A DNA stretch of 64,000 bases from Marchantia polymorpha subsp. ruderalis (lineage: Eukaryota; Streptophyta; Marchantiopsida; Marchantiales; Marchantiaceae): positions 12,050,501 through 12,114,500 of the forward strand of contig AP031356.1 of NCBI GenBank assembly GCA_037833965.1, given 5' to 3'. The notes beneath the pieces were generated by a model. It did not search any database and was not told the origin of the DNA. It worked only from the letters and a program-made list of their open reading frames with translations. Positions 473 through 55,951 of this stretch are shown here, piece after piece (the stretch's first letter is position 1; the number at the start of each line of letters is the position of its first letter). The position numbers were made by a program, and so were the translations under genes.

Positions 473-1746
473 TGAAAAGCTCAGAACTCCAAGGCACGTC
501 AACTTCTCGCTCCGAATGGCATTCTGCTTGAAATTTTGCACGCTGATGCGCCCTGCCCTACTCCAGCGTTCCACTCAATTTCAGCTCCAGATCACTCCGA
601 ACGTAGAAGATACAGCTCCCGTAAGAATCTCTTGCCCTCAAATCTTGTAACTCAAAGCTCGAAACTCAAAATTGGACGCACTGTGACTCTGAAACTCCGT
701 TCGACCTAAAAATTGACACGCTTGAGCGCTCTACCCAACGTCACAACGCCACAAAATTTCAGCCCCCGTTCACACTCGAGCCCAAAGTTACGGCCCCTGC
801 AAGATTTGGCCCTCCCCTCTCAAAAAGCTCAGACCTCCAAGACACGTCAACTTCTTGCTCCGAATGGCGTTCTGCTTGAAATTTTGCACGCTGATGCGCC
901 CTGCCTTACTCCAGCGTTCCACCAAGTTTCAGCTCCATTTCACCCCGAACGTAGAAGATACAGCTCCCGTAAGAATCTCTTGCCCTCAAATCTTGAAACT
1001 CAAAGCTCGAAAATCAAAATTGGACGCACTCTGACTCTGAAACTCCGTTCGACCTGAAAATTGACACGCTTGAGCGCTCTACCCAACGTCAGAACGCCAC
1101 AAAATTTCAGCCCCCGTTCACACTCGAGCCCAAAGTTACGGCCCCTACAAGATTTGGCCCTCCCCTCTCAAAAAGCTCAGACCTCCAAGACATGTCTACT
1201 TCTCGCTCCGAATGGCGTTCTGCTTGAAATTTTGCAGGCTGATGCGCCTTGCCCTACTTCAGCGTTCCACCAAGTTTGAGCTCCAGATCACTCCGAACGT
1301 AGAAGATACAGCTCCCGTAAGAATCTCTTGCCCTCAAATCTTGAAACTCAAAGCTCGAAACTGAAAATTGGACGCACTGTGACTTTGAAACTCCGTTCGA
1401 CCTGAAAATTGACACGCTTGAGCGCTCTACCTAACGTCACAACGCCACAAAATTTCAGCCTCCGTTCACACTCGAGCCCAAAGTTACGGCCTCTGCAAGA
1501 TTCGGCCCTCCCCTCTCAAAAAGCTCAGTCCTCCAAGACACGTCAACTTCTCGCTCCGATTGGCGTTCTGCTTGAAATTTTGCAGGCTGATGCGCCTTGC
1601 CCTACTCCAGCGTTCCACCAAGTTTCAGCTCCAGATCACTCCGAACGTAGAAGATACAGCTCCCGTAAGAATCTCTTGCCCTCAAATCTTGAAACTCAAA
1701 GCTCGAAACTCAAAATTGGACGCACTGTGACTCTGAAACTCCGTTC
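473..1746 (-). repeat. LINE-C 5' UTR monomer array, 348-bp unit, ~3.7 copies
   Basis: Tandem units recur every ~348 bp; the landmark GAATGGCGTTCTGCTTGAAA falls near 514, 862, 1210 and 1558. Each unit is an ancient dimer of ~174-bp halves: both halves carry a GCGCYCT-like box, an ACCCAACG-like stretch and CAAATTTCAGC. The array abuts the ORF1 start at 472, so in element sense it is the 5' leader. Open frames of 72-122 aa across it are by-products of the repeat. Confidence 0.85.
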
Positions 1747-1831: not shown

Positions 1832-1993
1832 AAAACCGTTTGCACAAGATTGAGAAGTTTGTTTTCAGAATCCATCATGAACCCAACTTTGCAAGATGTT
1901 ACACAAGCTCAAAGTTTCGGAATAAAAACTTCTTGACTGCAGCTCCGTTGGGGCTGAAAATTTGCAAGTATGTGCGCACGGCCGTCGTGAAAA
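1832..1993 (-). mobile_element. Inverted LINE-A 5' end (ORF1 start plus last monomer)
   Basis: Reverse complement of the LINE-A ORF1 start (MMDSENKLLNLVQT, ATG near 1878) and of the ORF1-proximal 165-bp monomer. At ~1993 the sequence flips into plus-strand LINE-A monomers, making a head-to-head fold-back with 1994-2420. Confidence 0.8.
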
Positions 1994-2374
1994 GTTGTCA
2001 TTTCGAAACTTTAAGTTTAGGGATTTGAGCATGAATCTTGCGGGGGCCATATCTTCTTGCTGGAGTGTCAACAGGAGCTGAGATTTAGTGAGCTTGTTCA
2101 CAACGGCCGGGCGCACATACCTGCAAATTTTCAGCCCCAACGGAGCTGCTGTCAAGAAGTTGTCATTTCGAAACTTTGAGTTTAGGAATTTGAGCATGAA
2201 TCTTGCGGGGGCCATATCTTCTTGTTGGAGTGTCAACAGGAGCTGAGATTTGGCGGGCTTGTTCACGACGGCCGGGCGCACATACCTGCAAATTTTCAGC
2301 CCCAACGGAGCTGCTGTCAAGAAGTTTTCATTCCGAAACTTTGAGCTTGTGTAACATCTTGCAAAGTTGGGTTC
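1994..2374 (+). repeat. LINE-A 5' UTR monomers, 165-bp unit
   Basis: About 2.3 units; the core CCTGCAAATTTTCAGC recurs at ~2120 and ~2285. The array runs straight into the ORF1 leader and ATG at 2375. The same arrangement is seen before LINE-A3 (5640) and LINE-A1 (24546). Confidence 0.85.
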
Positions 2375-5070: not shown

Positions 5071-5640
5071 AAATTTGAACTTTGAAATTGAAACTTTGGT
5101 CATTTCAAAACTTTGAGTTTAGGGATTTGATCATGAATCTTGCGGAGTCCATATCTTCTTACTGGAGTGTCAACGGGAGCTGAGATCTGGTGGGCTTGTT
5201 CACAACGGCCGGGCAAACATACCTGCAAATTTTCAGCCCCAACGGAGCTGCTGTCAAGAAGTTGTCATTTCGAAACTTTGAGTTTAGCGATTTGAGCATG
5301 AATCTTGCGGAGGCCATATCTTCTTGCTGGAGTGTCAACGGGAGCTGAGATTTAATGGGCTTGTTCACGACGGCCGGGCGCATATACCTGCAAATTTTAA
5401 GCCCCAACGGTGCTGCTGTCAAGAAGTTGTCATTTCAAAACTTTGAGTTTAGGGATTTGAGCATGAATCTAGCGGAGGCCATATCTTCTTGCTGGAGTGT
5501 CAACAGGAGTTGAGATTTGGTGGGCTTGTTCACGACGGCCGGGCGCACATACCTGCAAATTTTCAGCCCCAACGGAGCTGCTGTCAAGAAGTTTTCATTT
5601 CAAAACTTTGAGCTTGTGTAACATCTTGCAAAGTTGGGTT
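5071..5640 (+). repeat. LINE-A3 5' UTR monomers, 165-bp unit
   Basis: About 3.3 units of the LINE-A monomer with point differences, each containing the GGCCGGGCG box and CCTGCAAATTTT core. Contiguous with ORF1. Confidence 0.85.
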
Positions 5641-15279: not shown

Positions 15280-16010
15280 GTCGTATCAACCGAAACACTC
15301 TAAATTCTAGATCGAAGCACCAAAAAATATCGTAACTTCTCACTTAAGCCTCCATGCACCTTCAAACTTGATGAGCTTCTGCCAAATATCAATCCCATAG
15401 TCCTCAAAAATTTTCAGCCTCAGATCATGCTTTGTCGAAAAGATAAAAATGTCTGAACATTTTTGTGACCACCTGAGCACTCGAGATAAAAAGTCGAAAC
15501 TCAAAATGGTCTGTAACTTCTGATTCAAGCGTCCGTTGACCTTCAAATTTTTTATGCTACTGCCAAATATTGATCTCCAAGTCCTCAAAAATTTTCAGCC
15601 TCAAATCATGCTTTGTCGAAAAGATAAAAATGTCTGAACATTTTTCTGACCACCGGAACACTCGAAACAAAAAGTCAAAACTCCAAATGGGCTGTAACTT
15701 CTGACTCAAGCGTCCGTTGACCTTAAAACTTTTTATGCTACTGCCAAATATTGATCTCCAAGTCCCCAAAAATTTTCAGCCTCAGATCATGCTTCGTCAA
15801 AAAGATAAAAATGTCTGAACATTTTTGTGACCACCCGAACACTCGAAACAAAAAGTCGAAACTCCAAATGGGCTGTAACTTCTGAATCAAGCGTCCGTTC
15901 ACCTTCAAACTTTTTATGCTACTGCCGAATATTATTCTCCAAGTCTCAAAAAATTTTCACCCTCAGATCATACTTCACCAAAAAGATAAAAATGTCTGAA
16001 CATTTTTGTG
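15280..16010 (-). repeat. LINE-B proximal 5' monomers, 181-bp unit
   Basis: Four units, landmark AAAATGTCTGAACATTTTTG near 15446, 15627, 15808 and 15989. Lies between ORF1 and the distal array. The unit contains the near-palindrome CAAAAATTTTCAGCCTC. Confidence 0.85.
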
Positions 16011-19000
16011 ACCACGTGAAACACTCCCAATTGACACTTTTCGCTGAAGAAATTCGTGAACTTCTGCGTCCCAACTCCAAAATGCGTGAAATTTTGCAGG
16101 CTGGAGCGCGCTACCCAACTCCACGTCCCTGCAAATTTCCAGCTTCCGTGGACACTCAGACGCGAAGATACGATCTCTGCAAGAAACGATCTCGAACCCA
16201 ACACTCGAAAACTCCAACTCGAAACTTGAGAAATCCGTGAACTTCGGCGTCGCAACTCCAAAATGCGTGAAATTTTGCAGGCTGGAGCGCGCTACCCAAC
16301 TCCACGCCCCTGCAAATTTTCAGCTTCCGTGGACACTCAGACGCGAAGATACGATCTCTGCAAGAAACGATCTCGACCCCAACACTCGAAAACTCCAACT
16401 CGAAACTTGAGAAATCCGTGAACTTCGGCGTCCCAACTCCAAAATGCGTGAAATTTTGCAGGCTGGAGCGCGCTACCCAACTCCACGCCCCTGCAAATTT
16501 TCAGCTTCCGTGGACACTCAGACGCGAAGATACGATCTCTGCAAGAAACGATCTCGACCCCAACACTCGAAAACTCCAACTCGAAACTTGAGAAATCCGT
16601 GAACTTCGGCGTACCAATTCCAAAATGCGTGAAATTTTGCAGGCTGGAGCGCGCTACCCAACTCCACGTCCCTGCAAATTTTCAGCTTCCGTGGACACTC
16701 AGACGCGAAGATACGATCTCTGCAAGAAACGATCTCGACCCCAACACTCGAAAACTCCAACTCGAAACTTGAGAAATCCGTGAACTTCGGCGTCCCAACT
16801 CCAAAATGCGTGAAATTTTGCAGGCTGGAGCGCGCTACCCAACTCCACGCCCCTGCAAATTTTCAGCTTCCGTGGACACTCAGAGGCGAAGATACGATCT
16901 CTGCAAGAAACGATCTCGACCCCAACACTCGAAAACTCCAACTCGAAACTTGAGAAATCCGTGAACTTCGGCGTCCCAACTCCAAAATGCGTGAAATTTT
17001 GCAGGCTAGAGCGCGCTACCCAACTCCACGCCCCTGCAAATTTTCAGCTTCCGTGGACACTCAGACGCGAAGATACGATCTCTGCAAGAAACGATCTCGA
17101 CCCCAACACTCGAAAACTCCAACTCGAAACTTGAGAAATCCGTGAACTTCGGCGTCCCAATTCCAAAATGCGTGAAATTTTGCAGGCTGGAGCGCGCTAC
17201 CCAACTCCACGCCCCTGCAAATTTTCAGCTTCCGTGGACACTCAGACGCGAAGATACGATCTCTGCAAGAAACGATCTCGACCCCAACACTCGAAAACTC
17301 CAACTCGAAACTTGAGAAATCCGTGAACTTCGGCGTCGCAACTCCAAAATGCGTGAAATTTTGCAGGCTGGAGCGCGCTACCCAACTCCACGCCCCTGCA
17401 AATTTTCAGCTTCCGTGGACACTCAGACGCGAAGATACGATATCTGCAAGAAACGATCTCGACCCCAACACTCAAAAACTCCAACTCGAAACTTGAGAAA
17501 TCCGTGAACTTCGGCGTCCCAACTCCAAAATGCGTGAAATTTTGCAGGCTGGAGCGCGCTACCCAACTCCACGCCCCTGCAAATTTTCAGCTTCCGTGGA
17601 CACTCAGACGCGAAGATACGATCTCTGCAAGAAACGATCTCGACCCCAACACTCAAAAACTCCAACTCGAAACTTGAGAAATCCGTGAACTTGGGCGTCC
17701 CAACTCCAAAATGCGTGAAATTTTGCAGGCTGGAGCGCGCTACCCAACTCCACGTCACTGCAAATGTTCAGCTTCCGTGGACACTCAGACGCGAAGATAC
17801 GATCTCTGCAAGAAACGATCTCGACCCCAACACTCAAAAACTCCAACTCGAAACTTGAGAAATCCGTGAACTTCGGCGTCCCAACTCCAAAATGCGTGAA
17901 ATTTTGCAGGCTAGAGCGCGCTACCCAACTCCACGCCCCTGCAAATTTTCAGCTTCCGTGGACACTCAGACGCGAAGATACGATCTCTGCAAGAAACGAT
18001 CTCGACCCCAACACTCGAAAACTCCAACTCGAAACTTGAGAAATCCGTGAACTTCGGCGTCCCAATTCCAAAATGCGTGAAATTTTGCAGGCTGGAGCGC
18101 GCTACCCAACTCCACGTCCCTGCAAATTTTCAGCTTCCGTGGACACTCAGACGCGAAGATACGATCTCTGCAAGAAACGATCTCGACCCCAACACTCGAA
18201 AACTCCAACTCGAAACTTGAGAAATCCGTGAACTTCGGCGTCCCAATTCCAAAATGCGTGAAATTTTGCAGGCTGGAGCGCGCTACCCAACTCCACGTCC
18301 CTGCAAATTTTCAGCTTTCGTGGACACTCAGACGCGAAGATACGATCTCTGCAAGAAACGATCTCGACCCCAACACTCGAAAACTCCAACTCGAAACTTG
18401 AGAAATCCGTGAACTTCGGCGTCCCAACTCCAAAATGCGTGAAATTTTGCAGGCTAGAGCGCGCTACCCAACTTCACGCCCCTGCAAATTTTCAGCTTCC
18501 GTGGACACTCAGACGAGAAGATACGATCTCTGCAAGAAACGATCTCGACCCCAACACTCGAAAACTCCAACTCGAAACTTGAGAAATCCGTGAACTTCGG
18601 CGTCCCAATTCCAAAATGCGTGAAATTTTGCAGGCTGGAGCGCGCTACCCAACTCCACGCCCCTGCAAATTTTCAGCTTCCGTGGACACTCAGACGCGAA
18701 GATACGATCTCTGCAAGAAACGATCTCGACCCCAACACTCGAAAACTCCAACTCGAAACTTGAGAAATCCGTGAACTTCGGCGTCGCAACTCCAAAATGC
18801 GTGAAATTTTGCAGGCTGGAGCGCGCTACCCAACTCCACGCCCCTGCAAATTTTCAGCTTCCGTGGACACTCAGACGCGAAGATACGATATCTGCAAGAA
18901 ACGATCTCGACCCCAACACTCAAAAACTCCAACTCGAAACTTGAGAAATCCGTGAACTTCGGAGTCCCAACTCCAAAATGCGTGAAATTTTGCAGGCTGG

Positions 19001-19389
19001 AGCGCGCTACCCAACTCCACGCCCCTGCAAATTTTCAGCTTCCGTGGACACTCAGACGCGAAGATACGATCTCTGCAAGAAACGATCTCGACCCCAACAC
19101 TCAAAAACTCCAACTCGAAACTTGAGAAATCCGTGAACTTCGGCGTCCCAACTCCAAAATGCGTGAAATTTTGCAGGCTGGAGCGCGCTACCCAACTCCA
19201 CGTCACTGCAAATGTTCAGCTTCCGTGGACACTCAGACGCGAAGATACGATCTCTGCAAGAAACGATCTCGACCCCAACACTCAAAAACTCCAACTCGAA
19301 ACTTGAGAAATCCGTGAACTTCGGCGGCGCAACTCCAAAATGCGTGAAATTTTGCAGGCTGGAGCGCGCTACCCAACTCCGCGTCCCTG
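16011..19389 (-). repeat. LINE-B distal 5' monomer array, 181 bp x ~18.5
   Basis: GAAATTTTGCAGGCT occurs 19 times from 16089 to 19347 at exact 181-bp spacing. Units differ by a few substitutions and no length change. A 1448-bp (8-unit) segment is repeated: rare variants at 17007, 17242-17484 and 17754 recur at 18455, 18690-18932 and 19202. Repeated 80-aa minus-strand frames here are side effects of the repeat. Confidence 0.9.
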
Positions 19390-19566
19390 GAATATTTGTA
19401 ACTTTTCACTTGTTCCAACTCTAATCCTTTGTAACAGAAAGAGAGCTTGGATCTAGTGCCCACAAGAATGACTTTGGACTTCTCCAAATTGACTTCCATC
19501 TGATTTTGAGTACAAAAGCTAGCCAAAGTGTTGAGGTGTTTCTGTAAAGAAACACCTCAACACTCC
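19390..19566 (-). mobile_element. Inverted LINE-A RT fragment with perfect fold-back
   Basis: Minus-strand copy of the segment found at ~20620-20780, then a palindrome: GTGTTGAGGTGTTTCT, GTAA, AGAAACACCTCAACAC. It shares the rare CTCAACAC variant (other LINE-A copies have CTCGACAC) with LINE-A3 at ~20625, so its template was probably LINE-A3 itself. Confidence 0.75.
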
Positions 19567-21520: not shown

Positions 21521-21911
21521 GATGCTATGTAGAAAGAATGTGAGAATTTCTGGTCTACCTGAATCTGAGAAGGAAGAGGTGAAGAGTGTTGTCACCAAGT
21601 TTTTAGCTGAAACACTTGATGTTCCTAATGCGGATGTGGCTCAAGCTTTTCGCATTGGAACCATAGGAACTCAACCTCGAGCCATCATAGTTAAGTTCAA
21701 TGACCAAACTCAACGTGATACAGCTTTAGCCAACAAAGTTGTACTCAAAGGACGTAGGATTTGGTTAGATCCCGATCTCACACCTCTACAAGTAGAGGCA
21801 AGGAGAAAGGAGCTTGCAAAAGTCAAAGAAGCTCAAGATGCTGGATTTTTTGCTTATCTTCGTGATGGACAAGCAATTGTCACTCAAAGGAAGAGACAAT
21901 CATCCACATAG
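20106..21911 (+). pseudogene. Chimeric frame: LINE-A RT fused to LINE-C ORF1 C-terminus
   Basis: A 601-codon open frame. Residues ~1-470 are LINE-A3 RT and thumb region (VESKLSTW, QAGFRP, FKKAFDTV, YADD) up to RICKLCD. A junction VMLC leads into LINE-C ORF1 RRM and C-terminal domain (RKNVRISGLPESE to RKRQSST). The RT lacks its first motifs. The fusion arose by a junction at ~21521-21531 that happens to keep frame. No promoter is evident; probably accidental. Confidence 0.8.
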
Positions 21912-22352
21912 AGACAATCATCCACATTCTCAATTATCAGAGCAAAGGTGAAGTTTTTCTGGTTGGAGATTTCAATGCTCGAATAGGTTGTGCACAATTT
22001 ACTCAAGTTGGTGATCTCTTGGGTTCTCCCTCCTTTGAAGAACTTGAAGATAGTATGTGGTGTAGAAAGTCTTCTGATATTTGTACAAATCCTTTGACAT
22101 AACACTTTCTAACCTTTGGAGCCACATGTAATTTCAAAGTTCTCAACGGTATCTCTCTCTTTCCCAACTCCCTTTCCAATACGTGCTTTTCTCCTACAGG
22201 TGTTAGCACCATTGATTATCTTCTATCTTCAGCCACTCATAGCTCTTTTATTTCGAAATTTGATATTCTAGAACCTCAGCCAGAGTCAGATCATGCACCT
22301 CTCTTATTTACTCTCTTGTTATCAAAAACAATCCCTCTCTCTCCATGCCATT
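21525..22352 (+). mobile_element. LINE-C copy, segment 1 (ORF1 end and part of endonuclease)
   Basis: LINE-C ORF1 C-terminal part to 21911, an 18-bp direct duplication (units starting ~21893 and ~21911), a jump to the second half of the endonuclease (GEVFLVGDFNARIGCAQ; SDHAPLLF at ~22290), then interruption at CCATT (22348-22352) by C'. Continues at 23139-24105 and 28623-28665. One in-frame stop is visible near 22099 (PLT, stop, HFLTFG). Confidence 0.8.
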
Positions 22353-23133
22353 GTGAGAAACCAAACCTCATATGCTATTCTTCTTGCGGAAACAGGTTGT
22401 TTACCTCTAGAGGCTGAAGCTCTATACTTGACCATCACTTACATCACAAGGGTGAGATCTCTTGATGCTTCTCGCCTTCCTCCTCAGGCTTTGAGTGCCA
22501 CACGTGCCAAAGGATGGTTAGCGGATGTGATAACTTGGTCTTTGAGGTGGAATGTGACGGAACGCGATTGGGACCTACAACCTATAGCACTACGTGAACG
22601 TCTAAAGGAGGAGTTTCTGAACATTATTTGGAGCAAGCGCGGCACCAAGATGCAGTTTTATCAACTTCATGTGAATCCTATGCTTGTTTATTGTGAACAT
22701 GATTACCTACTTGCAGGAATCTCTACGTCCTTACGTCATATTATTGCTAGGCATAGAACTGGATCTCATAGGCTAGGAATTGAGGAAGGACGTTGGCTTA
22801 ATATTGATAGGAGTCAACGTATTTGTAGGCTATGTGATGGAAGAGAAGTTGAGGATGAAGAGCATGTATTTCTTACTTGTACTAGATATGCAGAGATTAG
22901 AGTGACTCATAATATAGATGTAGAGAATTTTCATTCTTTGTTACAGTTAGTTCCTTTTGATTTAGGTTGTTATATTAGGGACATTATTAGTTATCGTTCT
23001 AGTGCTCTTGGCACTAGCTAGGGTTTGGCCTTTGGGGTCTTTTCCCTTGTTTGTGGCTGTCGCTTGTATTGTGTTTTCCAGCCTTTTGACCCTTTGGGTC
23101 CCCCGGGCTTGATCTATTACCATTTACCATTTA
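22353..23133 (+). mobile_element. LINE-C', 5'-truncated copy inserted in LINE-C
   Basis: ORF2 C-terminal third (VRNQTSYAILLAETGC to YRSSALGTS, stop at ~23019-23021), the C-type 3' UTR (GGGTTTGGCCTTTGGGG), hairpin and tail. Target duplication CCATT at 22348-22352 and 23134-23138. The frame in the insert is open. The knuckle is ICRLC..EEHVFLTC. Confidence 0.9.
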
Positions 23134-23138
23134 CCATT

Positions 23139-24105
23139 CTGTTTTAACTTCTCCCAAGTTTCGTTTAGATCCTAGTAAGAAAGAGTTGTACATGTTACAT
23201 TTTCAAAACCTTTTGACTCACACTTCATGGAGCCTTGATCCACATACAGCGAGTGGGCAATTAATAGAGTTGCTGAAAGACACTGCTTCTAAGTTCTTTT
23301 TGCGGCACAAGGATCGAAGAGCTAGGGGGCTTCCTTGCAATGGATGGTTTGACTTGGATTGTAAGCAAGCGAGGATGAGATCAGTTGACAAGTCTTTGGA
23401 TTTCCAAAGTCGGCTTACCTTGACAAGGCTTTACAAAGACTTGGTGAAGTCTAAAAAAAGAGCTTTTTTGAGGACGAAGCAGGAATCCTTGACAAAGGAG
23501 TTGATGGAGAATCCCAAATCCTTTTGGAGACGGTTAGCTGTAAGGTCTTCAAAACCTACTCTTGATCCCAAGAGTTTGATTGACTTTGCTGAAAAGCTTT
23601 ATTTCTTTCCCAACGCTGCATCAATGCCTTGTTGTGAAGGAACATCAGGCTTATTTTCTGAATCAGAGGTGATGACTCAAGTTAGAAAATTAGCAAATGG
23701 TAAATCGGAGGATTTGGATGGTCTCTCTATTGAACTTTTGAAGTGGGGAGGAGATCTTATTGGACCGAGACTCACCAAAGCGTTAGAGAATGCAGCTATG
23801 TATGGTTTTCCTTCAGCTTGGTCATTACGGAAGATTGTGCCTATTCACAAGTCAGGAAGGAAGGACTTGGTGACAAACTATCGCACTATCATGGTGGGTA
23901 GTGTTTTTGCCAAGTTGTTTGGCAAATTGGTGGAGTCAAAGTTGAGCACATGGACTGAATCTCACCGAAAGAGAGCGCGGTTTCAAGCAGGCTTTCGCCC
24001 CACATACAACACCATTGACCATATCTTGGCTTTGCGTGTTTTATGGGAGAAGTCAAAGGGCAATGGCAAAGCTTTGTTTTGCGCCTTCATTGATTTTAAG
24101 AAAGC
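23139..24105 (+). mobile_element. LINE-C copy, segment 2 (linker and RT N-terminal part)
   Basis: From CTGTTTTAACTTCTCCC to GATTTTAAGAAAGC, encoding the linker (FFLRHKDRRARGLPCNGWFD) and first RT motifs (VTNYRTIMVGS, QAGFRP, FIDFKKA). LINE-A1 interrupts at AAAGC (24105). The remaining bases TTTTGACACTGTACC follow at 28623. Confidence 0.9.
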
Positions 24106-24490
24106 ACAACGGCCGGGCGCATATACCTGCAAATTTTCAGCCCCAACGGAGCTGCTGTCAAGAAGTTGTCATTTCGAAACTTTGAGTTTAGGGATTTGAG
24201 CATGAATCTTGCGGAGGCCATATCTTCTTGCTGGAGTGTCAACGGGAGCTGAGATTTGGTGGGCTTGTTGACGACGGCCGGGCGCACATACCTGCAAATT
24301 TTCAGCCCCAACGGAGCTGGTGTCAAGAAGTTGTCATTTCGAAACTTTGAGTTTAGGGATTTGAGCATGAATCTAGCGGAGGCCATATCTTCTTGCTGGA
24401 GTGTCAACGGGAGCTGAGATTTGGTGGGCTTGTTGACGACGGCCGGGCGCACATACCTGCAAATTTTCAGCCCCAACGGAGCTGCTGTCA
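24106..24490 (+). promoter_or_regulatory. LINE-A1 5' UTR: ~2.4 tandem 165-bp monomers
   Basis: Cores CCTGCAAATTTTCAGC near 24128, 24293 and 24458, 165 bp apart, then a ~55-bp leader to the ORF1 ATG. Because the array lies inside the insertion boundaries it is part of the mobile element. By analogy with rodent L1 monomers it is a likely internal promoter (inference). Confidence 0.75.
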
Positions 24491-24545
24491 AGAAGTTTTC
24501 ATTTCGAAACTTTGAGCTTGTGTAACATCTTGCAAAGTTGGGTTC

Positions 24546-25283: not shown

Positions 25284-25292
25284 CAATCCAAG
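25281..25292 (+). promoter_or_regulatory. Candidate read-through stop between ORF1 and ORF2
   Basis: ACC TAG CAA TCC, frame 0 on both sides. TAG followed by CAA resembles the leaky-stop context CARYYA of plant RNA viruses, with the last base different. Conserved in LINE-A2 (3250), A3 (19591), B1 (14526), B2 (29981) and B3 (51804). Confidence 0.6.
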
Positions 25293-25307
25293 AGATTGAG
25301 GGTGTTG

Positions 25308-28508: not shown

Positions 28509-28622
28509 GGGGTTCTTTTGGTTCTCTCCTAGTTTGGAGTTGGATTGTTTGTATTGTGTTTTTTAGCCTTTTGACCCTTTGGGTCCCACGGGCTTGATCT
28601 ATTTACCATTTACCATTTACCA
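28509..28622 (+). other. LINE-A1 3' UTR, conserved hairpin and heptamer tail
   Basis: Short UTR, then a two-tier stem-loop (outer AGCC with GGCT, inner GACCC with GGGTC around TTT), TTGATCTA and three TTTACCA heptamers. The last ~70 bp are shared by A, B and C although the sequence before them differs in C, marking it as the RT recognition end. Confidence 0.75.
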
Positions 28623-28665
28623 TTTTGACACTGTACCTCGTGAGCTATTATGGGAAAGGCTGCAA
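28623..28665 (+). mobile_element. LINE-C copy, segment 3
   Basis: TTTTGACACTGTACCTCGTG continues the reverse transcriptase codons interrupted at 24105 (KKAFDTVPRELLWERLQ). It ends at a junction with an inverted LINE-A ORF1 fragment. Confidence 0.85.
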
Positions 28666-28981
28666 GCATAGGACTTCATTTTCACCTCAAGAGTTTCAAC
28701 CACTTCATGCAAAGCAGGAGTAGTAACAGTAGAAGCTTGAGAATGGTAAATGGTAAATGGTAAATAGATCAAGAACCAACCTTGTCTTGAATGTCCTCAA
28801 CAGATCCAGAGATTTGGAGCATGATCTTCTCAAAACTTTTGTGAGAAATCTTCAACTCCCTGATTTCATTCTTTGCAGCAGTCAAAGCAACATTTTGTGC
28901 CTTGAATTCTTGGCGTAGCACTTTCAATTCCTCCAAAACCGTTTGCACAAGATTGAGAAGTTTGTTTTCAGAATCCATCAT
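28666..28981 (-). mobile_element. LINE-A ORF1 N-terminal fragment
   Basis: Minus strand, ATG at 28981 (MMDSENKLL) to about residue 95, interrupted at 28744-28772 by a tail insertion. No monomer upstream: at 28982 it joins LINE-B2 directly. Confidence 0.85.
28744..28772 (-). mobile_element. 29-bp LINE insertion: tail plus 8 nt
   Basis: Three heptamers followed by TAGATCAA only, with GAA duplicated on each side (28741-28743, 28773-28775). Shows truncation within 8 nt of the tail. Confidence 0.8.
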
Positions 28982-30734: not shown

Positions 30735-31633
30735 GTCGTATCAACTTCCGTATCAACCGAAACACTCTAAATTCTAGGTCAAAACACCAAAAAATATCGT
30801 AACTTCTCACTCAAGCCTCCATGCACCTTCAAACTTAATGAGCTTCTGCCGAATATCAATCACCAAGTCCTCAAAAATTTTCAGCCTCAGATCATGCTTT
30901 GTCAAAAAGATAAAAATGTCTGAACATTTTTGTGACCACCTGAACACTCAAAACAAAAAGTCGAAACTCCAAATGGGCTGTAACTTCTGACTCAAGCGTC
31001 CGTCCACCTTCACACTTTTTATGCTACTGCAAAATATTGATCTCCAAGTCCCTAAAAATTTTCAGCCTCAGATCATGCTTTGTCAAAAAGATAAAAATGT
31101 CTGAACATTTTTGTGACCACCGGAACACTCGAAACAAAAAGTCGAAACTCCAAATGGGCTGTAACTTCTGACTCAAGCGTCCATTCACCTTCAAACTTTT
31201 TATGCTACTGCCAAATATTGATCTCCAAGTCCCCAAACATTTTCAGCCTCAGATCATGCTTCGTCAAAAAAATAAAAATGTCTGAACATTTTTGTGACCA
31301 CCGGAACACTCGAAACAAAAAGTCGAAACTCCAAATGGGCTGTAACTTCTGACTCTAGCGTCCATTCACCTTCAAACTTTTTATGCTACTGCCCAATATT
31401 GATCTCCAAGTCCTCAAACATTTTCAGCCTCAGATCATGCTTCGTCAAAAAAAAAAAAATGTCTGAACATTTTTGTGACCACCGGAACACTCGAAACAAA
31501 AAGTCGAAACTCCAAATGGGCTGTAACTTCTGACTCAAGCGTCCGTTCAGCTTCAAACTTTTTATGCTACTGCCAAATATTGATCTCCAAGTCCCCAAAA
31601 ATTTTCAGCCTTAGATCATGCTTTGTCGAAAAG
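30735..31633 (-). repeat. LINE-B2 proximal 5' monomers, 181 bp x ~5
   Basis: Landmark AAAATGTCTGAACATTTTTG near 30915, 31096, 31278, 31459. Cut at GTCGAAAAG (31633) by the LINE 3'-end array. Confidence 0.85.
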
Positions 31634-32813
31634 AAACACAATACAAACAATCCAACTCCAAACTAGGAGAGAACCAAAAGAACCCCCTAGCTAGTGCCCA
31701 AATCACTAGAACGGTAACTAATAATATCTCTAATGTAACAACTTAATCATAGGGCTCGAGTTGAAGCAGAGAAAAGAAATTCTCGACATCAACTTTATGC
31801 GCCACTCGAATCTCTACATACCTAGAACAAGTAAGAAATACATGCTCTTCATCCTCAACTTTTCTTCCATCACATAGCCTACAAATACGTTCACTCCTAT
31901 CAATGTTCAACCAACGCCCTTCTTCAATCCCAAGATTATGAGATCCAGTTCTATGTCTAGCAATAATATGACATAAAGAAGTAGATATCTCTGCAAGTAA
32001 ATGGTAAATGGTAAATAGATCAAGCCCGTGGGACCCAAAGGGTCAAAAGGCTAAAAAACACAATACAAACAATCCAACTCCAAACTAGGAGAGAACCAAA
32101 AGAACCCCCTAGCTAGTGCCCAAATCACTAGAACGGTAACTAATAATATCTCTAATGTAACAACTTAATCATAGGGCTCGAGTTGAAGCAGAGAAAAGAA
32201 ATTCTCGACATCAACTTTATGCGCCACTCGAATCTCTACATACCTAGAACAAGTAAGAAATACATGCTCTTCATCCTCAACTTTTCTTCCATCACATAGC
32301 CTACAAATACGTTCACTCCTATCAATGTTCAACCAACGCCCTTCTTCAATCCCAAGATTATGAGATCCAGTTCTATGTCTAGCAATAATATGACATAAAG
32401 AAGTAGATATCTCTGCAAGTAAATGGTAAATGGTAAATAGATCAAGCCCGTGGGACCCAAAGGGTCAAAAGGCTAAAAAACACAATACAAACAATCCAAC
32501 TCCAAACTAGGAGAGAACCAAAAGAACCCCCTAGCTAGTGCCCAAATCACTAGAACGGTAACTAATAATATCTCTAATGTAACAACTTAATCATAGGGCT
32601 CGAGTTGAAGCAGAGAAAAGAAATTCTTGACATCAACTTTATGCGCCACTCGAATCTCTACATACCTAGAACAAGTAAGAAATACATGCTCTTCATCCTC
32701 AACTTTTCTTCCATCACATAGCCTACAAATACGTTCACTCCTATCAATGTTCAACCAACGCCCTTCTTCAATCCCAAGACTATGAGATCTAGTTCTATGT
32801 CTAGCAATAATAT
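31634..32813 (-). repeat. Tandem array of LINE-A 3' ends, 423-bp unit x ~2.8
   Basis: Three head-to-tail copies of the LINE-A terminal region (ORF2 end, 3' UTR, hairpin, tail), with ACACAATACAAAC at ~31636, 32059 and 32482. Units share private variants (CCCAAATCACTAG, AACTTAATCATAGGG) and an identical junction CTGCAAGTAAATGG, so they arose by tandem duplication of one truncated copy. Confidence 0.85.
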
Positions 32814-33040
32814 GAAGATAAGGGTGTTGGTGTGGAATATCCGAGGACTTTCAACAGATTTGGAGATTTAATGGGCTTGTTCTAGACGGCCGAGCGCACA
32901 TACCTGCAAAGTTTCAGCCCCAACGGAGCTACTGTCAAGAAGTTGTCATTTCGAAACTTTGAGTTTAGGGATTTGAGCATGAATCTTGCGGCGGCCATAT
33001 CTTCTTGCTGGAGTGTCAACAGGAGCTGAGATTTGGTAAG
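32814..33040 (+). mobile_element. LINE-B ORF2 start fused to a LINE-A monomer
   Basis: 32816-32855 matches the LINE-B ORF2 start (TGTGGAATATCCGAGG). 32856-33040 is one LINE-A monomer with several substitutions (GACGGCCGAGCGCACATACC). Both junctions lack tail sequence. Confidence 0.75.
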
Positions 33041-35624
33041 CATGCACCTTCAAACTTGATGAGCTTCTGCCGAATATCAATCTCCAAGTCCTCAAAAATT
33101 TTCAGCCTCAGATCATGTTTTGTCGAAAAGATAAAAATGTCTGAACATTTTTGTGACCACCTGAACACTCGAAACAAAAAGTCGAAACTCCAAATGGGCT
33201 GTAACTTCTGACTTAAGCTTCCGTTCACCTTCAAACTTTTTATGCTACTGCCAAATATTGATCTCCAAGTCCCCAAAAATTTTCAGCCTCAGATCATGCT
33301 TCGTCGAAAAGATAAAAATGTCTGAACATTTTTGTGACCACCGGAACACTCGAAACAAAAAATCGAAACTCCAAATGGTCTGTAACTTCTGACTCAAGCG
33401 TCCGTTTACCTTCAAACTTTTTATGCTACTGCCAAATATTGATCTCCAAGTCCCCAAACATTTTCAGCCTCAGATCATGCTTCGTCAAAAAGATAAAAAT
33501 GTCTGAACATTTTTGTGACTCTTAGAACACTCAAAACAAAAAGTCAAAACTCCAAATGGGCTGTTACTTCTGATTCAAGCGTCCATTCACCTTCAAACGT
33601 TTTCTGCTTATGCTGAATATTAATCTCCAAGTCCTCAAAAATTTTTAGCCTCAGATCATGCTTCGTCGAAAAGATAAAAATGTCTGAACATTTTTGTGAC
33701 TCTCGAAACACTCAAAACAAAAAGTCGAAACTCCAAATGGGCTGTTATTTCTGATTCAAGCATCCATTCATCTTCAAACTTTTTCTGCTTCTGCCGAATA
33801 TTAATCTCCAAGTCATTAAAAAGTTTTAGCCTCAGATCATGCTTCGTCGAAAAGATAAAAATGTCTGACATTTTTGTGACCACCGGAACACTCGAAACAA
33901 AAAGTCGAAACTCCAAATGGGCTGTAACTTCTGACTCAAGCTTCCGTTCACCTTCAAACTTTTTATGCTACTACCGAATATTGATCTCCAAGTCCCCAAA
34001 AATTTTCAGCCTCAGATCATGCTTCGTCAAAAAGATAAAAATGTCTGAACATTTTTGTGACCACCGGAACACTCGAAACAAAAAGTCAAAACTCCAAATG
34101 GGCTGTTACTTCTGATTCAAGCGTCCGTTCACCTTCAAACTTTTTATGCTACTGCCGAATATTGATCTCCAAGTCCCAAAAAAATTTCAGTCTCAGATCA
34201 TGCTTCGTCGAAAAGATAAAAATGTCTGAACATTTTTGTGACCACCGGAACACTCGAAACAAAAAGTTAAAACTCAAAATGGGCTTTAACTTCTGACTCA
34301 AGCTTCCGTTCACCTTCAAACTTTTTATGCTACTGCCGAATATTGATCATCAAATCCCCAAAAATTTTCAGCCTCAGATCATACTTCGTCAAAAAGATAA
34401 AAATGTCTGAACATTTTTGTGACCTCCGGAACACTCGAAACAAAAAGTCGAAACTCCAAATGGGCTGTGACTTCTGACTCAAGCGTCCGTTCACCTTCAA
34501 ACTTTTTATGCTACTGCCGAATATTGACCTCCAAGTCCTCAAAAATTTTCAGTCTCAGATCATGCTTCGTCAAAAAGATAAAAATGTCTGAACATTTTTG
34601 TGACCACCGGAACACTCGAAACAAAAAGTCGAAACTCCAAATGGGCTGTAACTTCTGACTCAAGCGTCTGTTCACCTTCAAACTTTTTATGCTACTACTG
34701 AATATTGATCTCCAAGTTCTAAAAAAATTTCAGCCTCAGATCATACTTCGTCAAAAAGATAAAAATGTCTGAACATTTTTGTGACCACGTGAAAACACTC
34801 ACAATTGACACTCTTCGCTGAAGAAATTCGTGAACTTTGGCGTCCCAACTCCAAAATGCGTCAAATTTTGCAGGCTGGAGGACGCTACCGAACTCCACGC
34901 CCCTGCAAATTTTCAGCTTCCGTGGACACTCAAACGCGAAGAAACAATCTCTGCAAGAAACGATATCAACCCCAACACTCGAAAACTCCAACTCGAAACT
35001 TGAGAAATCCGTGAACTTCGGCGGCCCAACTCTAAAATGCGTGAAATTTTGCAGGCTGGAGCGCGCTACCCAACTCCACGCCCCTGCAAATTTTCAGCTT
35101 CCGTGGACACTCAAACGCGAAGAAACGATCTCTGCAAGAAACGATCTCGACCCCAACACTCGAAAACTCCAACTCGAAACTTGAGAAATCCGTGAACTTC
35201 GGCGGCCCAACTCCAAAATGCGTCAAATTTTGCAGGCTGGGGCGCGCTACCGAACTCCACGCCCCTGCAAATTTTCAGATTCCGTGGACACTCAAACACG
35301 AAGAAACAATCTCTGCAAGAAACGATCTCGACCCCAACACTCGAAAACTCCAACTCCAAACTTGAGAAATCCGTGAACTTCGGCGTCGCAAATCCAAAAT
35401 GCGTCAAATTTTGCAGGCTCGAGCGCGCTATCGAACTCCACGCCCCTGCAAATTTTCAGCTTCCGTGGACACTCAGACGCGAAGAAACTATCTCTGCAAG
35501 AAACGATCTCGACCCCAACACTCGAAAACTCCAACTCGAAACTTGAGAAATCCGTGAACTTCGGCGTCGCAAATCCAAAATGCGTGAAATTTTGCAGGCT
35601 GGAGCGCGCTACCGAACTCCACGC
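33041..35624 (-). repeat. Orphan LINE-B 5' monomer array (proximal then distal)
   Basis: 33041-~34790 holds ~9.7 proximal 181-bp units starting with the ORF1-adjacent one (CATGCACCTTCAAACTTGATG). At ~34790 the array switches to distal units (GAAATTTTGCAGGCT-like, ~4.6 units) to 35624. The switch sequence (GTGACCACGTGAAA then CAATTGACAC) is the same as in LINE-B1 (~16010) and B3 (~53480). No ORF1 is attached. Several units here are more diverged than in B1. Confidence 0.85.
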
Positions 35625-44370: not shown

Positions 44371-45745
44371 ATCCACCTTTCTATATCATCTATGCATTTG
44401 CATAGATGATATAGAAAGGTGGTTAGATGATTGTGAGAGTGAAGGAGTCAAACTTGGAGACTTTGTGATCAAAGCTCTGTTGTATGCAGATGATATCATA
44501 TTACTAGCACGTGATGCAATTAGTTTCCAGAAACAACTTGATACTTTGGCTAGCTTTTGTACTCGAAATCAGATGGAGGTCAATCTGGAAAAATCAAAGA
44601 TCATTCTTGTGGGCACTAGATCCAAGTTCTCTCTTTTACAAGGGACTAGAATTGGAACAAGTTAAGAGTTACAAATATTTAGGCATTGATTTTTCTCAGA
44701 ATTATAGTTGGGCACTTTGTGTACAAAAGAGAGTAGAAGCTGGTTACAAAGCTCTATATTCATTGTTAAATCGATGTAGAAGAGCTCATCTAGTATCTTG
44801 GAGTCTTAGGAAATTTTTATTTAGGAGTTTAGTGTTGCCGGTGATTCCATTTACCATTTACCATTTACCATATGGGACACAAGTGTGGGGTCCTGGCAGT
44901 AAGAAGACAAGTTGGGAGCGTGTGGAGAGGGTGCAAAAGATCTTCTTACAAGAAGAGTTAGGTGTAAGGAACCAAACTCCTTATGCTATTCTTCTTGCGG
45001 AAACCGGTTGTCTACCTCTTGAGGCTGAAGCTCTCTACTTGACCATCACTTATATTGGAAGGGTGAGATCTCTTGATGCTTCTCGACTTCCTCTTCATGC
45101 TTTGCGTGCCACACGTTCCAAGGGATGGTTTGCAGATGTGATGACTTGGTCTTTGAGGTGGAATGTGACGGAATTGGATTGGGATCTGCAACCTATGGCC
45201 CTTTGCGAGCGTATTAAGGAGGAGTTTCTCAACATCATTTGGAGGAGAGGAGGCACTTAAATGCAGTTTTATCAACTTCATGTGAATCCTATGCTTATTT
45301 ATTGTGAGCAAGGGTACCTTGTTGCAGAGATTGCTACATCTTTACATCATATTATTGCCAGCCATAGAACAGGATCTCATAGGCTTGGAATTGAGGAAGG
45401 ACGTTGGTTGAATATTGATAGGAGTGAACGGATTTGTAGGCTATGTGATGGGAGAAATGTTGAGGATGAAGAGCATGTGTTTATTACTTGTACTAGATAT
45501 ATAGAGATTCGAGTAGCGCATAAAGTTGATGTCGAGAATTTCTTTTCTCTGCTTCAACTCGAGCCTTATGATTTAGGTTGTTACATTAGAGATATTATTA
45601 GTTACCGTTCTAGTGCTTTGAGCACTAGCTAGGGGGTTCTTTTGGTTCTCTCCTAGTTTGGAGTTGGATTGTTTGTATTGTGTTTTTTAGACTTTTGACC
45701 CTTTGGGTCCCACGGGCTTGATCCATTTACCATTTACCATTTACC
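44371..45745 (+). mobile_element. LINE-B 3' part of the twin-primed copy, with tail
   Basis: After a 25-bp snap-back (44380-44420, CCACCTTTCTATATC and its complement) the RT continues from CATAGATGATATAG through YADD to YRSSALSTS and the tail at 45745. Defects: a 3-bp-scale deletion near 44630 shifting frame, a solo tail insertion at ~44849-44870, and TAA at 45258-45260 shared with the copy at 36357. Confidence 0.85.
44849..44870 (+). mobile_element. ~22-bp solo tail insertion
   Basis: CATTTACCATTTACCATTTA-type tail between GTGATTC and TATGGGACAC; siblings read GTGGTTCTATATGGGAC. Frame is kept but adds residues to the thumb region. Confidence 0.75.
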
Positions 45746-47195
45746 AAGATTCGGCCCTCTCCTCTCAAAAAGCTCAGACCTCCAAGGCACGTCAACTTCT
45801 TGCTCCGAATGGCGTTGTGCTTGAAATTTTGCAGGCTGATGCGCCCTGCCCTACTCCAGCGTTGCACTAAATTTCAGCTCCAGATCACTCCGAACGTAGA
45901 AGATACAGCTCCCGTAAGAATCTCTTGCCCTCAAATCTTGAAACTCAAAGCTCGAAACTCAAAATTGGACGCACTGTGACTCTGAAACTCCGTTCGATCT
46001 GAAAATTGACAGGCTTGAGCGCTCTACCTAACGTCACAACGCCACAAAATTTCAGCTCCCGTTCACACTCGAGCCTAAAGTTACAGCCCCTGCAAGATTT
46101 GGCCCTCTCCTCTCAAAAAGCTCAGACCTCCAAGGCACGTGAACTTCTTGCTCCGAATGGCGTTCTACTTTAAATTTTGCAGGCTGATGCGCCCTGCCCT
46201 ACTCCAGCGTTCCACTAAATTTCAGCTCCAGATCACTCCGAATGTAGAAGATACAGCTCCCGTAAGAATCTCTTGCCCTCAAATCTTGAAACTCAAAGCT
46301 CGAAACTCAAAATTGGACGCACTGTGACTCTGAAACTCCGTTTAACCTGAAAATTAAAAGATTTGAGCGCTCTACTCAACGTCACAACGCCACAAAATTT
46401 CAGCCCCCGTTCACACTCGAGCCCAAAGTTACGGACCCTTCAAGATTCGGCCCTCCCCTCTCAAAAAGCTCAGACCTCCAAGGCAAGTCAACTTCTTGCT
46501 CCGAATGGCGTTCTGCTTGAAATTTTGCAGGCTGATGCGCCCTGCCCTACTCCAGCGTTGCACCAAATTTCAGCTCCAGATCACTCCGAACGTAGAAGAT
46601 ACAGCTCCCGTAAAAATCTCTTGCCCTCAAATCTTGAAACTCAAAGCTCGAAACTCAAAATTGGACGCACTATGACTCTGAAACTCCGTTCAACCTGAAA
46701 ATTGACAGGCTTCAGCGCTCTACCCAACGTCATAACGCCACAAAATTTCAGCCCCCGTTCACACTCGAGCCTAAAGTTACGGCCCGTGCAAGATTCGGCC
46801 CTCCCCTCTCAAAAAGCTCAGACCTCCAAGGCACGTCAACTTCTTGCTCCGAAAGGCGTTGTGCTTGAAATTTTGCAGGCTGATGCGCCCTGCCCTACTC
46901 CAGCGTTGCACCAAATTTCAGCTCCAGATCACTCCGAACCTAGAAGATACAGCTCCCGTAAGAATCTCTTGCCCTCAAATCTTGAAACTCAAAGCTCGAA
47001 ACTCAAAATTGGACGCACTGTGACTCTGAAACTCCGTTCAATCTGAAAATTGACAGGCTTGAACGCTCTACCTAACGTCACAACGCCACAAAAGTTCAGC
47101 CCCCGTTCACACTCGAGCCCAAAGTTACGGCCCCTGCAAGATTCGGCCCTCTCCTCTCAAAAAGCTCAGACCTCCAAGGCACGTCAACTTTTTGC
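45746..47195 (-). repeat. LINE-C 5' monomer array, 348 bp x ~4.2
   Basis: Landmark GCTTGAAATTTTGCAGGCT-like sites near 45820, 46168, 46516, 46864. No LINE-C ORF1 attached. Units differ from 473-1746 by shared substitutions (GGCACGTCAACTTCTTGCTC), so a distinct lineage. Confidence 0.85.
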
Positions 47196-48436
47196 TATGA
47201 GATCCAGTTCTATGCCTAGCAATAATATGACGTAAAGAAGTAGATATCTCTGCAAGTAAGTATCCTTGCTCACAATAAACAAGCATAGGATTCACATGAA
47301 GTTGATAAAACTGCATCTTGGTGTCTCGTCTGCTCCACATAATGCTCAGAAATTCCTCCTTAATACGCTCGCGTAGGGCAATAGGTTGCAAATTCCAATC
47401 CAGTTCCATCACATTCCACCTCAAAGACCAAGTCACCACATCTGCAAACCAACCCTTGGGACGTGTGGCACGCAAAGCTTCAAGAGGAAGTCGAGAAGCA
47501 TCAAGAGATCTCACTCTTTTGACGTAAGTGATAGTCAAAAAGAGAGCTTAAGCCTCAAGAGGTAGACAACCTGTTTCCGCAAGAAGAATTGCATAAGAAG
47601 TTTGGGTCCTCACACCCAATTCTTCTTGTAAGAAGATCTTTTGCACCCTCTCCAAACGCTGCCAACCTGTCTTCTTACAACCAGGACCCCACACTTGTGT
47701 TCCATATAAGATAACGGAAAACACTAAGCTCCTGAATAAGAATTTCCTAAGACTCCAAGACACTAGATGAGCTCCTCTACATCTATTTAGCAATGAATAT
47801 AGAGCTTTGAAACCAGCTTCTACCCTCTTTTGCACACAAAGTGCCCAACTATAATCAGATGAGAAATCAATGCCCAAATATTTGTAACTTTTCACTTGTT
47901 CCAACTCTAATCCTTTGTAATAGAAAGAGAGCTTGGATCTAGTGCCCACAAGAATGACTTTGTACTTCTCCAAATTGACTTCCATCTGATTTTGAGTACA
48001 AAAGCTAGCCAAAGTGTCAAGGTGTTTCTGTAAACTAGTGGCATCAAATGCTAGTAATATGACATCATCTGCATACAAAAGAGCTTTGATGACAAAGCCT
48101 CCAAGTTTAACACCTTCGCTATCACAATCCTCCAACCACCTTTCTATATCATCTATAAAAACTCCAAAGAGAGTGGGAGAGAAAGTACAATCTTGAATGA
48201 CTCCAATGGTGCTGATAATCTCTTTGGTTTGAGAAGTGTTGATCTTGGCCCGAACTGAGTGGTATTATGCAGCCACCGCTGCCAAGAGATCTGATGGTAC
48301 TCCAATGGTTTGCAATCTTTGCCATAAAAGCTCAGGAGGTACTGTGTCAAAAGCTTTCTTGAAATCAATGAAGGCACAAAACAAAGCTTTTCCATTACCC
48401 TTGGATTTCTCCCATAGAACACGTAAAAACCAAGAT
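47196..48436 (-). mobile_element. LINE-A RT fragment
   Basis: Minus strand from LRVLWEKSKG (~48430) to the C-terminal region (HRTGSHS, 47197). Frame breaks near 48190 and 47545 (TAA in LEA*ALF). YADD present. Carries LLAFDATS and SPTLFGVF-side changes. No tail. Confidence 0.85.
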
Positions 48437-52143: not shown

Positions 52144-53987
52144 ACATGACAGTTTTCAGCCTCCGATCATGCTTCGTCGAAAAGATAAAAATGTCTGAAC
52201 ATTTTTGTGACCACCTAAACACTCGAAACAAAAAGTTGAAACTCCAAATGGGCTGTAACTTCTGACTCAAGAGTCCATTCACCTTCAAACTTTTTATGCT
52301 ACTGCCGAATATTGATCTCCAAGTCCTCAAAAATTTTCAGCCTCAAATCATGATTTGTCGAAAAGATAAAAATGTCTAAACATTTTTGTGACCACCTAAA
52401 CACTCGAGATAAAAAGTCGAAACTCAAAATGGGCTGTAACTTCTGACTCAAGCGTCCGTTCACCTTCAATCTTTTTATGCTACTGCCGAATATTAATCTC
52501 CAAGTCCTCAAAAATTTTCAGCCTCAGATCATGCTTCGTCGAAAAGATAAAAATGTCTGAACATTTTTGTGACCTCCGGAACACGCGAAACAAAAAGTTG
52601 AAACTCAAAATGGGCTGTTACTTCTGACTCAAGCGTCCGTTCACCTTCAAACTTTTTATGCTACTGCCGAATATTGATCTCCAAGTCCCAAAAAAATTTC
52701 AGTCTCAGATCATGCTTCGTCGAAAAGATAAAAATGTCTGAACATTTTTGTGACCACCGGAACACTCGAAACAAAAAGTTAAAACTCAAAATGGGCTTTA
52801 ACTTCTGACTCAAGCGTCCGTTCACCTTCAAACTTTTTATGCTACTGCCGAATATTGATCATCAAGTCCCCAAAAATTTTCAGCCTCAGATCATACTTCG
52901 TCAAAAAGATAAAAATGTCTGAACATTTTTGTGACCACCGGAACACTCGAAACAAAAAGTCGAAACTCCAAATGGGCTGTGACTTCTGACTCAAGCGTCC
53001 GTTCACCTTCAAACTTTTTATGCTACTGCCGAATATTGACCTCCAAGTCCTCAAAAATTTTCAGTCTCAGATCATGCTTCGTCAAAAAGATAAAAATGTC
53101 TGAACATTTTTGTGACCACCGGAACACTCGAAACAAAAAGTCGAAACTCCAAATGGGCTGTAACTTCTGACTCAAGCGTCTGTTCACCTTCAAACTTTTT
53201 ATGCTACTGCCGAATATTGATCATCAAGTCCCCAAAAATTTTCAGCCTCAGATCATGCTTCCTCAAAAAGACAAAAATGTCTGAACATTTTTGTGACCCC
53301 CCAAACACTCAAAACAAAAAGTCGAAACTCCAAATGGGCTGTAACTTCTGACTCAAGCGTCCGTTTACCTTCACACTTTTTATGCTACTGCCGAATATTG
53401 ATCTCCAAGTCCCCAAAAATTTTCAGCCTCAGATCATACTTCGTCAAAAAGATAAAAATGTGTGAACATTTTTGTGACCACGTAAAACACTCGCAATTGA
53501 CACTCTTCGCTGAAGAAATTCGTGAACTTCGGCGTGCCAACTCCAAAATGCGTGCAATTTTGCAGGCTGGAGCGCGCTACCCAACTTCACGCCCCTGCAA
53601 ATTTTCAGCTTCCTTGGACACTCACACGCGAAGAAATGATCTCTGCAAGAAACGATCTCGACCCCAACACTCGAAAACTCCAACTCGAAACTTGAGAAAT
53701 CCATGAACTTCGGCGTCCCAACTCCAAAATGCGTGAAATTTTGCAGGCTAGAGCGCGCTACCCAACTCCACGCATCTGCAAATTTTCAGCTTCCGTGGAC
53801 ACTCACACGCGAAGAAACAATCTTTGCAAAAAACGATCTCGACCCCAACACTCGAAAACTCCAACTCGAAACTTGAGAAATCCGTGAACTTCGGCGTCCC
53901 AACTCCAAAATGCGTGAAATTTTGCAGGCTGGAGCGCGCTACCCAACTCCACGCCCCTGCAAATTTTCAGCTTCCGTGGACACTTAG
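52144..53987 (-). repeat. LINE-B3 5' monomers (proximal x~7, distal x~3)
   Basis: 181-bp units; proximal landmark AAAATGTCTGAACATTTTTG repeats to ~53280. Switch to the distal type at ~53476 with the same transition sequence as B1. Distal part truncated at 53987 by a LINE-A fragment. Confidence 0.85.
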
Positions 53988-55470: not shown

Positions 55471-55951
55471 CAAAAAGCTCCTCAAATCCTCTCAAAAAGC
55501 TCAGACCTCCAAGACACGTCAACTTCTCGCTCCGAATGGTGTTCTGCTTGAAATTTTGCAGGCTGATGCGCCCTGCCCTACTCCAGCGTTTCACCAAATT
55601 GTAGCTCCAGATCACTCCGAACGTAGAAGATACAGCTCCCGTAAGAATCTCTTGCCCTCAAATCTTGAAACTCAAAGCTCAAAACTCAAAATTGGACGCA
55701 CTCTGACTCCAAAACTCCGTTCGACCTGAAAATTGACAAGCTTGAGCGCTCTACCCAACGTCACAACGCCACAAAATTTCAGCCTCCGTTCACACTTGAG
55801 CTCAAAGTTACGGCCCCTGCAAGATTCGGCCCTCCCCTCTCAAAAAGCTCAGACCTCCAAGACACGTCAACTTCTCGCTCCAAATGGCGTTCTGCTTGAA
55901 ATTTTGCAGGCTGATGCGCCCTGCCCTACTCCAACGTTCCACTAAATTTAG
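55471..55951 (-). repeat. LINE-C monomers, ~1.4 units
   Basis: 348-bp type (CTCAAAAAGCTCAGACCTCC twice, ~55490 and ~55838). Confidence 0.85.

Follow-up and report, generated by a model that had tools for sequence, protein, structure and literature searches.

What are the satellite-like tandem repeats that precede the open reading frames of Marchantia polymorpha LINEs? Our analysis favours, with a probability of about 0.7, a reading in which three related families of L1-like LINEs carry these monomers as a 5' UTR that transposes with them, most likely functioning as tandem promoter units for RNA polymerase II. Wherever the element goes, its monomers go too; they occupy a fixed site before ORF1 and vary in number, their five types resemble one another, they bear signs of local amplification, and the 5' ends of insertions fall at non-random positions within them. 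Transcription starting from the monomers and a role for their motifs are what we infer.

LINE-A1 and the monomer arrays of the window

The window, a stretch of 64,000 nucleotides (C7:12050501-12114500) from a genome of 241.5 Mb in 9 contigs, holds a LINE nested in another LINE (Table 1). The host sequence reads ...AAGAAAGC to 24105 and then TTTTGACAC from about 28623, the unbroken order GAAAGCTTTTGACAC being present in A1's own reverse transcriptase; when the host is aligned by self-BLAST to other pieces of LINEs, ten alignments end at 24105. The exact junction can be placed only to within a few bases, and it shows no visible target-site duplication. Nesting of A1 in this host, as the original prediction had it, is thereby confirmed. 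TRF reports a 165-bp unit repeated 2.5 times at 24109-24516 with 97% matches, and this array and the split at 24105/~28623 agree with the further claim that the monomers lie within the insertion limits and moved with the element.

The order of monomers, leader and ORF1 had also been predicted for the other copies. It recurs in families A, B and D, but the host, which had been named LINE-C, itself carries no monomers within the window and belongs to the 348-bp family D (its segment 21530-21911 is 98.7% D ORF1). The B elements do carry tandem 181-bp monomers before ORF1, but of two kinds in a fixed order.

Table 1. Positions of LINE-A1, its host and the other monomer arrays in the window
Feature	Position	Strand	Remark
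LINE-A1, uninterrupted LINE	24106-28622	+	inside D-family LINE
A1 5' UTR, ~2.5 tandem A monomers of 165 bp	24106..24516	+	
Unique 29-bp leader, from end of A monomers to ORF1	24517..24545	+	anchor sequence, found at 58 places
A1 ORF1, 245 aa	24546..25283	+	coiled coil and RRM, predicted L1 ORF1p fold
A1 ORF2, 1070 aa	25296..28508	+	endonuclease and reverse transcriptase
A1 3' UTR and (ATTTACC)n tail	28509..28622	+	without poly(A)
Host LINE-C, of family D and mosaic in itself	21530..24105	+	split by A1
Host LINE-C, resumption	28623..28670	+	TTTTGACAC
D monomers, 348 bp x3.7	475..1746	-	before ORF1D at 1-435
Inverted A monomer piece and ORF1A fragment	1905..1988	-	head-to-head with A3
A3, A monomers x2.1	1992..2345	+	before ORF1 2375-3109
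A2, A monomers x3.1	5099..5612	+	before ORF1 whose match ends near 6001
B1 monomers, 181 bp x3.8	15333..16026	-	before ORF1B 14524-15279
B2 monomers, 181 bp x18.5	16048..19397	-	22 bp upstream of B1 array
B1 monomers x4.6	30800..31634	-	before ORF1B 29979-30734
A monomer fragment	32885..33037	+	adjoins B1 array
B1 monomers x9.6	33045..34796	-	without adjoining ORF1
B2 monomers x4.4	34822..35624	-	upstream of B1 array 33045..34796
D monomers x4.2	45745..47196	-	without adjoining ORF1
B1 monomers x7.4	52153..53496	-	adjoins ORF1B, which is present from base 417 onward
B2 monomers x2.6	53514..53984	-	upstream of B1 array 52153..53496
D monomers x1.3	55488..55949	-	without adjoining ORF1

Other features of the window concern LINE ends. 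A 422-bp unit built of LINE 3' ends is repeated 2.8 times at 99% at 31634-32815, and a heptamer tail, (ATTTACC)n or a rotation of it, replaces poly(A) at the LINE 3' ends at 28601-28625, 44847-44871 and 56275-56303. LINE 5' ends stand head to head, a few to about 50 bases apart, at 1905-2345 of the window, at index 50462-51185 of the C7 block and on C6 near 12816476; such pairs, consisting of two A ends or of a B2 and a D end, are possibly 5' inversions or insertions next to another array.

Families, junctions and copies across the genome

In each of the three related families, ORF1 is directly preceded by tandem monomers particular to that family: a 165-bp unit in A, two 181-bp types in fixed order in B and a 348-bp dimer in D. 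With the D halves counted separately, the resulting five types align at 48-64% identity and have motifs in common, running per unit of ~165-181 bp in the order TATCTT, ~20 bp, GCTGAAA, CAAAATTTCA, GAGTTT; judged by this alignment, they are diverged relatives of one another.

In two LINE blocks, junctions were surveyed over 254.5 kb (204.5 kb of C7 and 50 kb of C1), with arrays counted by eye and three overlapping cross-matches left out (mD at 118940 and 124716, mA at 146536). The family's own ORF1 begins 27 bp downstream in 18 of 22 A arrays, 54 or 66 bp downstream in 6 of 8 B1 arrays and 37-40 bp downstream in 3 of 7 D arrays, and all six B2 arrays are followed by a B1 array after 18-26 bp. 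The remaining A, B1 and D arrays have no ORF1 start at the expected distance, some being visibly interrupted or fragments. Within the same 254.5 kb, all TRF rows with a period of 100-500 bp and more than two copies are these monomers or doubles of them, the 422-bp LINE-3'-end repeat (x2.8) being the sole exception. Thus, of the expectation that monomers always end at ORF1 and vary in number, the variation was found (from 84 bp to 1368 bp or more among A copies, up to 18.5 copies in B2), and the adjacency holds for most A and B1 arrays and for three of the seven D arrays surveyed.

Across the genome, the best 40 places for the A1 5' UTR form one cluster per contig, C3 having one extra place about 1 Mb away, and the 181-bp and 348-bp arrays cluster similarly, with a few outside. 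At least 10 of the best 43 ORF2 copies lie outside the LINE blocks. The upstream stretch was read for 20 of these 43, chosen as lying outside the blocks or as having no monomer match in the A1 5' UTR listing, a choice that is biased, if anything, against the monomer claim. A leader is present in 16 of the 20, all 16 with monomers; the other four (L031, L044, L046, L048) have neither leader nor monomers in the stretch read and are thus truncated or interrupted. A full-length copy without monomers, which the original prediction had named as a refutation, was therefore not encountered among the copies read. Among the eight ORF2 copies read outside the blocks, seven have both leader and monomers.

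Altogether, monomers (at least 84 bp) were found at 58 of 58 distinct leader-bearing A places, comprising 25 chosen by 5' UTR match (L002-L006 and 20 further), the 16 reached via ORF2 and 17 in the C7 and C1 blocks. The 5' flanks of five outside loci (L029, L030, L032, L034, L035) have no LINE-block match at E 1e-10, and as L029 and L030 share one junction, they represent four independent outside copies with monomers adjoining non-LINE DNA.

Several copies point to duplication of larger segments. On C1 (chrU), two LINE pairs at 2.60 and 2.97 Mb are exactly 366,083 bp apart, with the same 5' junction at L029 and L030, probably a segmental duplication. On C9 at 10.40-10.76 Mb, many matches recur at a distance of exactly 131,730 bp (10471879 and 10603609, for instance), which points to a segmental duplication within the LINE block. 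Three ORF1B copies on C5 (15973848-15987311) have a spacing of exactly 6,514 bp, perhaps the result of tandem amplification of a unit as long as an entire LINE. L038 (C2) and L039 (C3) have an identical 30-bp 5' flank, while further out their flanks match different LINE pieces.

Insertion 5' ends, array growth and rival readings

Where within the monomer do insertions begin? After removal of same-flank repeats and of arrays running off the stretch, 51 of the 55 distinct junction strings of A, 25 of 26 of B2 and 25 of 26 of D were kept. A Kuiper test on native phases rejects uniformity in all three families (A, p<=0.006, n=51; B2, p<=0.0004, n=25; D, p<=0.0034, n=25). On a common alignment the values are p<=0.0005 (A), 0.00025 (B2) and 0.00125 (D), somewhat favourable because gap columns of A fall in the empty arc, for which reason the native phases are preferred. 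A narrow-window scan reaches significance in B2 and D but fails to do so in A (p 0.09-0.51), and an emptiest-arc test reaches it in A and B2 but not in D (p 0.21). Columns 80-124 of the common alignment hold 17 of the 25 B2 ends and 13 of the 17 ends in the first D half; the A ends are spread more widely, with 43 of 51 in columns 28-124. Six of them, at columns 28-30, follow the start of TATCTT by 28-30 bp, whereas the preceding 28 bp hold only four. As the A and B2 ends differ (KS p 0.016), a single common start point is unsupported. Some 5' ends lie at T tracts next to T-rich flanks, so that a joining bias could contribute.

Non-random 5' ends in all three families are as expected if each monomer had a start site; in mouse L1, the 5' truncation site in a monomer is taken as the start site of the parent in passages of one study (PMC6454616). 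The phases thus strengthen the case for promoter function. They could instead mark where reverse transcriptase stopped or microhomology guided joining, with the monomers perhaps still being promoters, an explanation that we consider a serious if rather unlikely contender. It would account for the T runs at B2 phase 85 (5/25 ends) and A phases 28-29 (4/51) and for the several flanks that end in T, but not readily for the other T runs of the A monomer, which lie in a sparse stretch (phases 72-142, 8/51 ends), whereas the same aligned stretch holds those 17/25 B2 and 13/17 first-D-half ends.

If the monomers are promoters, each ~165-181-bp unit with the common motif order could start transcription, and an RNA begun in an upstream monomer would carry the monomers below it, which target-primed reverse transcription would copy into the new site. 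A copy losing some upstream monomers would still keep a working promoter, and array length could be regained by local monomer duplication. Tandem promoter monomers would answer a general LINE problem, the loss of the promoter on 5' truncation.

A different role, in targeting or chromatin and not in transcription, would have the monomers as nucleosome-sized repeats captured from a centromeric satellite, which hold the LINE in centromeric chromatin. The units of 165-181 bp are indeed close to nucleosome size, and the best copies lie in one block per contig, which suggests that the LINE blocks are the centromeres. Moreover, a specific LINE family is described as bordering the centromeres of M. 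polymorpha (Montgomery et al., 2020, as cited in passages of PMC9516144 and PMC12885004), and the elements described here are probably the same. We nevertheless find this role unlikely as an alternative, since the at least 10 of the best 43 ORF2 copies outside the blocks, seven of the eight read having leader and monomers, speak against it, and it predicts neither the constant site before ORF1 nor the 5'-end phases; it is in any case compatible with a promoter role and not exclusive of it.

As for the growth of the arrays, monomers are more alike within a copy (identity 0.954) than between copies at the same position (0.934, proximal unit left out), and in L040, which has eight monomers, alternate units are identical. 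This likeness and the two-unit pattern make local duplication a probable further source of array growth; no higher-order structure was found in the B2 array of 18.5 copies, identity being flat by lag with a slight rise at lag 8. Such apparent local expansion, together with the tandem two-copy LINE pieces also present in the blocks, would fit a passive by-product, in which repeated template jumping or 5'-end slippage at insertion leaves functionless tandem copies. That five diverged types in three families have all kept the tandem state, the common motifs and the fixed site before ORF1, and that 0 of 58 leader-bearing copies are without monomers, makes this quite improbable.

The last question is whether the monomers exist apart from LINEs. 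Forty D arrays were drawn from the matches listed, weak cross-matches of 73-85% being left out. Among these matches, ORF1D lies within 20 bp of the array end in 31, and two further arrays that were read (L109, L113) also adjoin it, giving 33 of 40; seven are not tied to an ORF1. The longest D arrays listed, ~7.9 kb on C4 (L111) and 6.2 kb on C9 (L110), both adjoin ORF1D. When the A monomer alone served as query, 45 arrays could be delimited by eye, of which 41 end at the leader-start phase and four are not tied to ORF1. For B2, a listed ORF1B, from the best 40 of 491 candidates, lies within 2.5 kb of 18 of 39 arrays, the other 21 being unpaired. Large LINE-free arrays, named in the original prediction as a possible main home of the monomers, were thus not found among the arrays examined and are rejected in this role for the matches listed. 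Although arrays can reach considerable length (3.3 kb in B2, 6.2 and 7.9 kb in D), a coincidental adjacency of LINEs that entered independent satellite arrays is refuted for arrays tied to an ORF1 and overall scarcely credible, given the ORF1D beside the longest D arrays listed, the constant offset of the junction to ORF1 and the monomers on copies in non-LINE DNA; we rejected it on the ORF1-adjoining D arrays and the monomer-bearing copies outside the blocks.

Classification and known systems

The proteins of the element are L1-like. ORF2 has an AP-type endonuclease and a reverse transcriptase, with matches to Pfam Exo_endo_phos (3.4e-9) and RVT_1 (3.3e-33), and its PDB matches to LINE-1 ORF2p (1.1e-22) and R2 proteins (2.3e-22) are so nearly equal that they cannot separate L1 from R2. 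By sequence, ORF1 has no Pfam family at the cut-off and one PDB match (E 0.66). Its AF2 model (mean pLDDT 83.5, pTM 0.44) combines a long coiled coil with an RRM and a C-terminal domain, and a Foldseek search against the PDB puts human L1 ORF1p at ranks 1-11 (best E 2.4e-9); the predicted fold of ORF1 is hence that of human L1 ORF1p. Among ORF1 relatives, the named ones with 77-95% identity are M. polymorpha proteins, and relatives at 40-43% occur in Riccia sorocarpa and R. fluitans (P0065, P0067, P0068). Five uninterrupted A copies were listed; in neither of the two whose targets were compared by eye was a target-site duplication seen. The tail is (ATTTACC)n, and mammalian-L1-type poly(A) was not encountered. 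On the ORF1 model and the ORF2 sequence, we call the element L1-like and do not assign it to the L1 clade.

Stacks of monomers resemble satellite DNA. A 162-bp Marchantia centromere satellite and the LINE are named separately, without mention of 5' monomers, in the passages of PMC9516144 and PMC12885004; no array with a 162-bp period was found by period search in the 254.5 kb of the two LINE blocks. We tentatively suggest, as a possibility that is less than even, that the centromeric satellite-like DNA of Marchantia consists of LINE promoters: insertions would seed nucleosome-sized arrays that local duplication turns into satellite, the published 162-bp repeat being a member or offspring. Retrotransposon promoter and centromere DNA would then be one sequence. 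The elements would also offer a path from LINE to satellite where a model plant presumably has its centromeres, and programs that locate centromeres by tandem repeats may be picking up the 5' UTRs of LINEs.

The titles and abstract openings of the best-ranked literature matches, with subscription literature largely outside, name no plant LINE with monomers. Among plant LINEs, Celine of poplar is likewise enriched in centromeres, but the passages of its description give a 635-bp 5' UTR without mention of repeats, a poly(A) tail, DUF4283 in ORF1 and target-site duplications (PMC11288735). Zepp and ZeppL of green algae are, like the Marchantia element, L1-type LINEs in centromere clusters, but the centromeres of two Chlorella species are reported to have no tandem satellite, and UTR and promoter go unmentioned in that paper (PMC11005252).

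The Marchantia LINEs have the rodent-type layout, with tandem monomers directly before ORF1 in a number that varies between copies, and also the rodent-type preference for certain 5'-end positions in the monomer (by Kuiper test in all families, by narrow-window scan in B2 and D, not in A). Mouse L1 is a LINE with L1 ORF1p and ORF2p. As described in passages of PMC6454616 (see also PMC9022269), L1MdA, Gf and Tf carry a variable number of ~200-bp tandem monomers of several types before ORF1. The Marchantia LINEs resemble these in the variable tandem monomers upstream of ORF1, the several types and the 5' ends within monomers; they differ in the plant host, in monomer motifs of their own (mouse monomers not being part of the comparison), in the two types in fixed order of family B, in the heptamer tail and in their concentration in presumed centromeres. 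Rat L1Rn also has tandem repeats in its promoter region, but of ~600-bp units seen in few elements, and the passages of this source describe L1 monomers in rodents only (PMC6454616). Thus, centromere-bordering LINEs of M. polymorpha and promoter monomers of mouse L1 were known, whereas a plant LINE with monomers was not seen among the best-ranked literature matches. Our data are best read as showing, in a plant LINE that is L1-like, a monomeric promoter resembling that of rodent L1, probably an independent invention, its independence from the rodent monomers being likewise an interpretation; a plant element with three evidently akin monomer families would then be a convergent second case for testing the monomer idea.
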